Notes under the pieces: model-generated
Told to the model about the DNA's origin: nothing
The model's input: the letters and a program-made list of their open reading frames with translations, nothing else
Database searches by the model: none
Position numbers and translations under genes: made by a program
Source: Aliidiomarina haloalkalitolerans
GTDB taxonomy: Bacteria; Pseudomonadota; Gammaproteobacteria; Enterobacterales; Alteromonadaceae
Assembly: GCF_003987315.1 (NCBI RefSeq)
Contig: NZ_PIPI01000002.1
Location: 186,001-250,000, forward strand
Direction of reading: 5' to 3'
Length of the DNA stretch: 64,000 nucleotides
In this document: piece by piece, positions 7,627-9,726 of the stretch
Position numbering within the stretch: the first letter of the stretch is position 1
How the letters are laid out: each line of letters opens with the position of its first letter

Positions 7627-9726
7627 TTAGTAAACTTCGTTACGGGTGTTGTAGTTATTAAACTTACCAGTAGGAGTAATCATCCGAGGGCCTTTAATGA
7701 CATGGCGCAGTGTCCGGGTTTTGTCATCGACGATAACAATCGCAGACTCTTCTTCCATGCCACTCCAGACTGAGAACCATACTTCATCACCTGCCATGTT
7801 GTACTCTGGCTGGACAATACGCTTCGGACCTGGGCCTAAATCTGCCCACTCGGCGATTGGTAACACTTCATAGCCCGCATCGAGATTGTTGATATCAAAC
7901 ACCGCGACAGATTGGCTAATCGACGCTTCTGGGTGGAAAGTGGTGTCTACCCACAAGTTAGTCGACTTCGGATGTGACTTCACAAATAATGAACCACCGC
8001 CTTGTCCCTGTAATACTTCCACAGCTTTAAACGCATGCTCTGGATAGTTGTCTGGGTCAGTACCAATGAGCGTAATGTCGGCATTACCGAGCGCACTGGT
8101 GATCCATACCGGGCCGTATTTCGGGTGTTCAATATTTGCGCCACGACCTGGGTGCGGGATACGTTCCGCCGGTACTAAGGCTTTTAACGTCCGCTCTTGA
8201 GCGTCAATGACTGCAATTTTGTCTGACTCATTCGCAGCGGTTAAGAAGTAGCGACCGCTGCGATCCCAACCCCCATCATGTAAGAAAGGTGCAGCATCAA
8301 TTGTGGTCACCTGTAAAGCATCGATGTTCTCGTAGTTCACCAAGAGAATTTTGCCGGTTTCTTTCACGTTAACGATAAACTCTGGGTGTTTATGCGAGCC
8401 AACAATTGCGGCAACCCGTGGTTCTGGGTGATATTCTTGGGTGCCCGTTACATAACCACGAGTTGAGACGATTTTATGTGGTTCCAAGCTCTCACCGTCC
8501 ATCAAGACATAATGCGGCGGCCAGTAAGCACCAGCAATTGCAATTTTGTCTTCATAGCCTTTATAGCGTGAGTTCTCGACAGAGCGTGCTTCCATACCAA
8601 TTTTGATTTCCGCCACCACTTGTGGTGGGTCCATGTATAAGTCGATTAAATCAACTTTACCGTCACGGCCGATGGTCGAGAAATAACGGCCAGAGCTTGA
8701 GGCCCGTGAAATGTGCACCGCATAACCGGTTGGCACATAAGAAATGACTTCATAACTATCGCCGTCGATAATCGCTACTTCACCGGCATCGCGCAACGTC
8801 ACCGCAAACATATTGTCAACGTTGTACTTGTGTTGTGGTTGAGCTGGTCGATCTTCTGGCTTGACGTGAACAATCCACGAGTCACGCATTTCTTTCATGC
8901 CCCACTCTGGCGGCATGGGCGGTTCATGTTGCAGGAAACGCGCCATCGCATCGATTTGGGCGTCGGTTAATTCACCTGACGTTCCCCAGTTCGGCATACC
9001 CGCTGGCGAGCCATATGCGATTAAGGCTTTTAAGAAGTCAGTACCTTTAGCTTGCGTTAAGTCAGTGGTTAAAGGTAAGCCTGTTGCACCTTTACGCAAT
9101 ACGCCGTGACAACCAGCGCAGCGCTCGAAATAGATTTGCTGCGACGAGGCGAATTCTTCTTCCGTCATGTCAGGGGCACCCGGTGTAATCACCATCTTGC
9201 CACCTTCTACCGGTGACGGTGCTCCTTTGTAACCGACTTCTGCTGCTGTCGCTGTGCTGTGTGCCTGCCCACTAGCACGATCCGTCAGACCACCACCATC
9301 GCGAACGTTTTTGACTTGCGCCGCGGTTACTTGTGGGCCACTGTTACCCCAACTATTCAGAACATAATTCGAAATATTGGCAATTTCAGTATCGTCTAGG
9401 TGAGCCATAGCCGGCATGACTGCGTTATAAGTGACACCACCCACTTCCAGTGGACCGGAAACACCTTTCAGAATAGAGTCGACAACACGTGCTGGCTCTG
9501 CTTTGAGGTTAGGGTTGTTCGCCAGCGGAGGGAAGGCACCGCGCATTCCTGACCCATCTGGTCGGTGACATGCTGCACAATGACGCTCGTAAGATTTTTT
9601 ACCCGCGTCCATATCTGCAGCGGCAGCGGTTCCCGCATAGCCACTGATGGCAAGCATAATGCCAGCAGCTGTGGCCGAGAACCACACTGGCTTGCGCCAG
9701 GCTGAACGTTTAGAAGTAGTTTTCAT
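7627..9726 (-). CDS. nirS: Cytochrome cd1 nitrite reductase with an extra N-terminal cytochrome c domain
   Basis: A periplasmic dissimilatory nitrite reductase reducing nitrite to nitric oxide. About 699 residues: signal peptide (1-37, ending AGTAAAA), an extra class I cytochrome c domain with CAACH at 50-54 and axial Met in NAVMPAM near 104, a linker, the usual NirS cytochrome c domain with CAGCH at 203-207, then the eight-bladed d1 propeller. Both distal histidine motifs GSHKHPEF and FLHDGGW and the GYAVHIS d1-ligand segment are present, arguing for NirS rather than NirN. Ordinary NirS is about 560-600 residues and lacks the first domain. The ATG at 9726 has GGAGG 8 bases upstream; the TTG at 9741 is not used. 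No haem d1 synthesis genes are adjacent. I found no clear FNR or sigma-54 site upstream. Confidence 0.95.

Follow-up and report, generated by a model that had tools for sequence, protein, structure and literature searches.

The window analyzed here, a stretch of 64,000 nucleotides from Aliidiomarina haloalkalitolerans, encompasses a nirS gene (7627..9726, minus strand) that starts with an ATG at 9726, with GGAGG upstream on the same strand, and encodes a 699 aa cytochrome cd1 nitrite reductase (PF02239, 453 bits) with an extra N-terminal haem c domain. From the N-terminus, and all on the minus strand, the gene encodes the extra cytochrome c domain of the NirK-c type (residues 36-142; 9301..9621, with CAACH at 9565-9579), a linker between the extra domain and the NirS c domain that is modeled with low confidence (residues 143-177; 9196..9300; pLDDT <50 for 149-177), the canonical NirS haem c domain (about residues 178-270; 8917..9195), and the d1 propeller domain, which is delineated by Pfam, the alignment and the structure model (residues 302-694; 7645..8823). 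The Pfam matches are Cytochrom_C at residues 40-126 (family E 4e-22), Cytochrome_CBB3 at 192-265 (6e-24) and Cytochrom_D1 at 302-694 (5e-136). The two c-type motifs reported in the preliminary description, CAACH at residues 50-54 and CAGCH at 203-207, are both present in the 699-aa minus-strand open reading frame.

As in the canonical NirS of P. aeruginosa (5guw/1nir), the PF02239 d1 propeller is preceded by a haem c domain, and the alignment to 1bl9/5guw shows that His182, His327, His369 and Tyr10 of the P. aeruginosa protein are all conserved; we take the three histidines to be the d1 ligand and the catalytic histidines. The catalytic residues are invariant in 48 aligned NirS sequences, 41 of these fused. 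Comparison of the window nirS with that of locus L021 (dN 0.037; pS 0.73, that is, synonymous differences near saturation) indicates that the gene is under strong purifying selection. We classify the protein as NirS, with a predicted reductase function. It differs from the canonical NirS in the extra N-terminal cytochrome domain and in the adjacent receptor gene.

The latter gene (5336..7552, also on the minus strand) follows nirS after 74 bp and encodes a PhuR-like TonB-dependent outer-membrane receptor that we propose as a candidate haem d1 receptor. Beside nirS, at positions 17805-61916, the window also contains an anaerobic nitrate-respiration island, with genes for HemN, NorR, NnrS, NorB with a cytochrome c-like N-terminus, NrdD, narGHJI, NarL and MFS transporters (narGHJI, nrdG and the transporters are named from translations only).

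In a PDB search, the extra domain (residues 29-142) retrieves as the best matches the cytochrome domains of NirK, namely, those of P. haloplanktis (2zoo, E 3e-27) and R. pickettii (3zbm/3ziy, about 7e-27 to 8e-27), the next-best ones being Thermus c552-type proteins (about 5e-16). In the domain tree, from which L018 and L142 were removed on account of their long branches, 71 N-terminal NirS domains and 8 NirK cytochrome domains split from 7 other cytochromes with support of 91/94, against a background that is narrow because these 7 were drawn from the plasmid matches of the extra domain itself. The best tree mixes the NirS and NirK domains, with many weak inner forks, and the AU test (110 columns) rejects neither the NirS domains nor the NirK domains as one clade (p 0.24 and 0.34). 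The PDB matches and the 91/94 grouping bear out the earlier proposal that the extra domain is a module of the type found at the C-terminus of NirK, and we classify it as NirK-c type by sequence affinity. The placement of this module at opposite ends of two unrelated reductases, also noted previously, stands as well: in the three-domain copper NirK (R. pickettii 3ziy, P. haloplanktis 2zoo; E 3e-27 to 8e-27), the same module is C-terminal, whereas in NirS it is N-terminal. The preliminary description had considered that the extra domain could instead cluster with NirC; no NirC appears among the matches listed above 15 bits for this domain, and this identity is rejected. That the extra domain could replace a soluble donor such as cytochrome c551 is a suggestion of the preliminary description; the host genome encodes other c-type cytochromes. 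In Arenimonas fontis and A. malthae, genes for NirK-cytochrome c fusions (L048 11283-13127 and L058 11525-13123) are located about 1.5 kb or less from the fused nirS, so that one genome can bring together the NirS-borne and NirK-borne modules.

Fused NirS is widespread among Gammaproteobacteria. A GTDB scan with the fused protein as the query yielded 262 relatives; among the best 80 of the 262 loci, which were kept, two CxxCH motifs together with d1 were found in 65, a share biased upward by the ranking with the fused query, and one CxxCH in 14, L060 being cut by a contig end. Chance or an assembly artefact as the source of the fusion is ruled out by the 65 two-haem loci. The preliminary description had allowed that the fusion might already be common, with described biochemistry: common it is, and no biochemistry for the fusion was found. 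Of 369 genomes sampled across the class, 68 contain a NirS-like match at 1e-60; in the window genome and 4 others of the 68, the alignment to the query begins at residue 39 or earlier, with an identity of at least 65%, and in a sixth, G377, it begins at residue 31, with 57% identity. Within the genus, the gene is patchy, being present in 3 of the 17 genomes. The NirS of G377 (L215 6941-8944) has two c domains by Pfam, and because the list of domain matches above 15 bits does not include the N-terminal one, we treat this protein as a different fusion, with another N-terminal cytochrome c domain; the G377 genome keeps further PF02239 proteins, NirJ and NirDLGH.

A C1-C2-NirS architecture has been called unique to Chloroflexi (Schwartz 2022; PMC8756737, in the part of the paper available to us), and in the cases described in that part, two cytochrome domains likewise precede d1, with no other denitrification gene nearby. 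As to architecture, the restriction to Chloroflexi is contradicted by the fused NirS described here, which is gammaproteobacterial, carries a domain of the NirK-c type and has a TonB receptor as a partner; the likeness to the Chloroflexi protein is one of domain order.

In profile searches of the host genome, which is 98.97% complete, NirF, NirN and NirDLGH (PF17805) had no match, the single PF02239 match was nirS itself, and no protein scored over the NirJ cut-off of 515 bits (best match, 62 bits), so that no haem d1 synthesis is recognizable in this bacterium, although the d1 site of its NirS is conserved. The searches further covered the genomes of 35 of the 66 fused loci among the 80, which together with G000, G006, G015, G183, G342, G348 and G358 make 42 fused handles, or 41 distinct fused-NirS genomes given that G015 and G406 look identical. 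Each of the 42 contains exactly one PF02239 match at 1e-10, and with G006 left out, NirJ is over the cut-off in none of the 40 distinct genomes (best, 89.6 bits). PF17805 is absent from all 42 and from 6 genomes with an unfused d1-less nirS, and the same search detected four PF17805 matches per genome in 11 d1-making genomes; the family is also absent from G430, a genome with a partial NirJ only. Among the 68 genomes of the class sample with a NirS-like match, 6 have no NirJ match at E 1e-40, namely, the 5 with this fusion and G193 (L199), in which four NirDLGH matches and NirF near a contig end were found, and which was scored as d1-making on that basis. Several of the 35 locus-linked genomes are MAGs, and completeness figures are lacking for the 35; the same genes are absent in isolates, for example, Idiomarina loihiensis SN11 (L026, complete chromosome). 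Kangiella aquimarina is a further case of a fused nirS for which no d1 genes were found. In contrast to canonical NirS, no nirC/F/D/J/N adjoins the fused nirS in these loci, and no NirF/N/J/DLGH was found in the genomes searched.

The NirS core tree comprises 131 sequences (quick method, SH-aLRT only; L233, L060, L063 and L051 left out). One set in this tree (support 96) includes 69 of the 70 sequences counted as fused, four unfused d1-less ones and one unfused d1-making NirS, represented by the identical L093 and L185. The four unfused d1-less sequences (L077, L082, L084 and L086) group together (97), nest inside the fused ones at a moderate 80-90, and are best read as having lost the domain later. 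The fused L062 pairs with the d1-making L093 (90), so that a single origin of the fusion is not certain. The absence of d1 synthesis requires 2 changes on the tree. Judging by these relationships, the putative salvage of haem d1, discussed below, and the fusion are linked by history, yet separable. That fusion as such does not require salvage is indicated by G377, with its differently fused NirS and a full d1 pathway. In Thiothrix (L088 2258-6076; L098), nirS is unfused, d1 genes were not found, and a Cir-like TonB receptor is encoded 61 bp (L088) or 4.3 kb (L098) from nirS, apparently an independent case of a d1-less nirS beside a receptor. Fusion as the cause of d1 loss is rejected given the four unfused d1-less sequences that nest among the fused ones, and is also contradicted by the d1-less Thiothrix loci that have no extra domain and by the d1 genes of G377.

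A TonB receptor gene was found within 700 bp of nirS in 42 of the 44 scorable d1-less loci vs 0 of the 41 scorable d1-making loci (Fisher's p = 3e-22, a value that is inflated by kinship and overstates independence because d1 absence needs only 2 changes on the NirS tree; the independent-pairs test has 2 pairs only, and at that number significance is out of reach). From the class sample, loci of 52 genomes with a NirS-like match were included, the other 16 of the 68 having weaker matches; loci with less than 2.5 kb on a side were left unscored, the duplicates L233, L189, L185, L192, L195 and L050 were excluded from the test, and the NirS-like proteins of some d1-making loci are distant (41-53% identity). 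Given that the profile of 49 receptors used in this first scan, over all reading frames, leans to one receptor kind, the control was repeated with a broader profile (46 receptors of all kinds, no speed filters), which matched none of the 54 d1-making loci, short ones included, at 1e-3. The exceptions among the scorable d1-less loci are L082, without a close receptor, and L098, with the distant one; in L084, which is d1-less and too short to score, a cut receptor is located 539 bp away. Among fused loci outside the searched genomes, the receptor is close by in 24 of 30, the other six consisting of the scorable L059 and L068, with none in view, and of L041, L053, L054 and L063, which end near nirS.

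On the best NirS tree, the side and strand of the receptor gene change at least 6 times, with the pair kept. The same place beside nirS is filled by three other receptor kinds: a Cir-like one in Thiothrix L088, 80% identical to the L098 receptor; one common to L077 and L086 (61% identity); and one common to L056, L070 and L087 (45-60% identity). Between receptor kinds, the alignment is limited to short stretches or low identity. The third kind lies just upstream of the fused nirS in L056, L070 and L087, and the best NCBIfam match of the L087 receptor is TIGR01783. In a survey in which at most 15 candidates per genome were scored, homologs of the window receptor with at least 33% identity were found in 16 of the 17 fused genomes tested, in each case next to nirS (two additional paralogs occur, in G390 and G396), and in none of the 55 non-fused genomes, including 14 nirS-less members of the genus; 4 of the 55 have a weaker match (26-27% identity). 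The identities of the receptors and of NirS are correlated across 29 loci (rho 0.72, permutation p 0.001). The selection on nirS and its co-variation with the receptor argue for a working pair.

The profile of 39 aligned receptors, that of the window and 38 of the 44 listed, matches PhuR with 531 bits over nearly the full length, the next match being ShuA with 189, and the model of the window receptor (pLDDT 82.6) has a TM score of 0.83 to PhuR of P. aeruginosa (8the). Like PhuR and other haem receptors, the protein consists of a plug and a TonB barrel with FRAP and NPNL/NPDL motifs, within which a few sequences vary. The haem-iron ligands of PhuR, presumably His124 and Tyr519, align with Gly137 and Ile509 of the window receptor, and both are replaced in all 39 partner receptors (G 30, T 7, Q 1 and S 1 in the first column; I 29, V 7, L 2 and R 1 in the second). 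No His is present between the FRAP and NPDL motifs in any of the 39. The axial haem ligands of receptors of this type are a His in the plug and a His or Tyr in the loop between FRAP and NPNL. For HemR, the part of the source available to us gives His128 and His461 as the haem ligands (PMC6449446). Further differences from PhuR are the conserved stretch around Asp506-Asn508, after FRAP, and the pairing of the gene with nirS. This agrees with a haem-receptor scaffold that has switched to a different ligand, haem d1 being only a putative one, and on sequence grounds, we classify the protein as PhuR-like rather than as an established haem receptor.

We consider it likely that the receptor gene next to nirS makes up a two-gene cassette with it, and that NirS, equipped with its own donor domain, is loaded in the periplasm with imported haem d1. 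It also seems fairly probable that the lineage gave up d1 synthesis and relies on a portable cassette that combines a self-sufficient NirS with a dedicated outer-membrane haem d1 receptor. Other denitrifiers would release haem d1 or dihydro-haem d1, the receptor would carry it through the outer membrane, and NirS lacking d1 would pick up the cofactor in the periplasm. The extra NirK-type domain would draw electrons from the general cytochrome pool and pass them to haem c and then to d1. These loci yielded no NirC, and a donor role of the fused domain in place of NirC/NirM, which we infer, is plausible. The outcome would be a portable two-gene unit of nitrite respiration that depends on the cofactor of the neighbors. 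Because NirS is matured in the periplasm, no inner-membrane step would be needed. In the parts of the sources available to us, the last steps of d1 synthesis and its insertion are periplasmic (PMC13168839), dihydro-d1 NirS is active in vitro (PMC3694632), and reconstitution of the apo-enzyme with d1 appears among the titles cited in the latter paper; hence, an outer-membrane receptor alone could supply NirS. No record of free haem d1 in nature was found in the literature consulted, which counts against salvage.

Alternatively, an unrelated, unrecognized pathway could make haem d1, with the receptor serving the iron or haem supply in anaerobic respiration and linked to nirS by co-regulation only. 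The d1-gene absence rests on profile searches, in which a weak radical-SAM match (62 bits) did appear, and the receptor belongs to the haem/iron receptor family; however, NirF/NirN, NirJ and NirDLGH are missing together and were found by the same searches in d1-making relatives, and a general iron receptor would be expected neither to adjoin nirS in 42 of 44 loci nor to be absent beside the nirS of d1-makers, so that we deem this scenario unlikely. The closeness of the receptor to PhuR, a haem receptor, would also agree with the d1 site of NirS holding another haem, for example, haem b brought in by the receptor. This appears quite improbable given that the d1 ligand and the catalytic histidines are all conserved, that a HemN for haem synthesis is encoded by the host itself, and that both aligned PhuR haem-iron ligands are replaced in 39 of 39 partner receptors.

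It is harder still to envisage nirS as a functionless leftover that hitch-hikes beside the receptor gene. Such a relic could account for the lack of a remaining nir operon and for the patchy presence of the gene (3 of 17 genomes of the genus), but it is at odds with the strong purifying selection on it (nearly saturated synonymous differences at a dN of 0.037), with the invariance of the catalytic residues over 48 aligned sequences and with the presence in the same window of narGHJI, NorR and NorB, which fit a working pathway.

The proposed import of haem d1 for NirS resembles a known process: in E. coli, PqqU/YncD takes up PQQ, which feeds the periplasmic apo-glucose dehydrogenase. In both cases, a TonB receptor would import an enzyme cofactor straight to the periplasm; the present case differs in that the putative cofactor is haem d1, the receptor gene partners the enzyme gene, and the pathway is respiration. 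The prevailing view is that haem d1 is synthesized by the NirS denitrifiers themselves. Should salvage prove true, haem d1 would circulate in denitrifying communities as a public good, the abundance of nirS could not be equated with the capacity for autonomous denitrification, and nirS counts in metagenomes would need re-reading. If the clade concerned (Idiomarinaceae, Kangiellaceae, Lysobacterales, Marinicella, Alcanivoracaceae and others) scavenges d1, denitrification would be a cofactor cross-feeding trait, akin to the use of B12, and N2O emission would depend on partners. The receptor named here is a candidate with a directly testable ligand. Among the open-access papers listed, none was found to describe haem d1 uptake or the pairing of nirS with a TonB receptor gene, and nothing relevant on the host genera was found among the matches listed. 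Clades have been described as differing in nirBEFJNT genes (PMC10999283, in the part available), and a figure (Figure 2 rings) or tables of that paper may hold part of the pattern.

With respect to regulation, a promoter and terminator scan yielded no more than expected by chance, and no FNR box was detected upstream of nirS at up to 2 mismatches. Across the window, matches to the FNR box at up to 2 mismatches number 61 vs 33 expected. Three exact FNR-box palindromes (TTGATNNNNATCAA), at 23251, 26069 and 35532, lie upstream of a DGC-domain gene, an MFS transporter gene and an nrdG-like gene.
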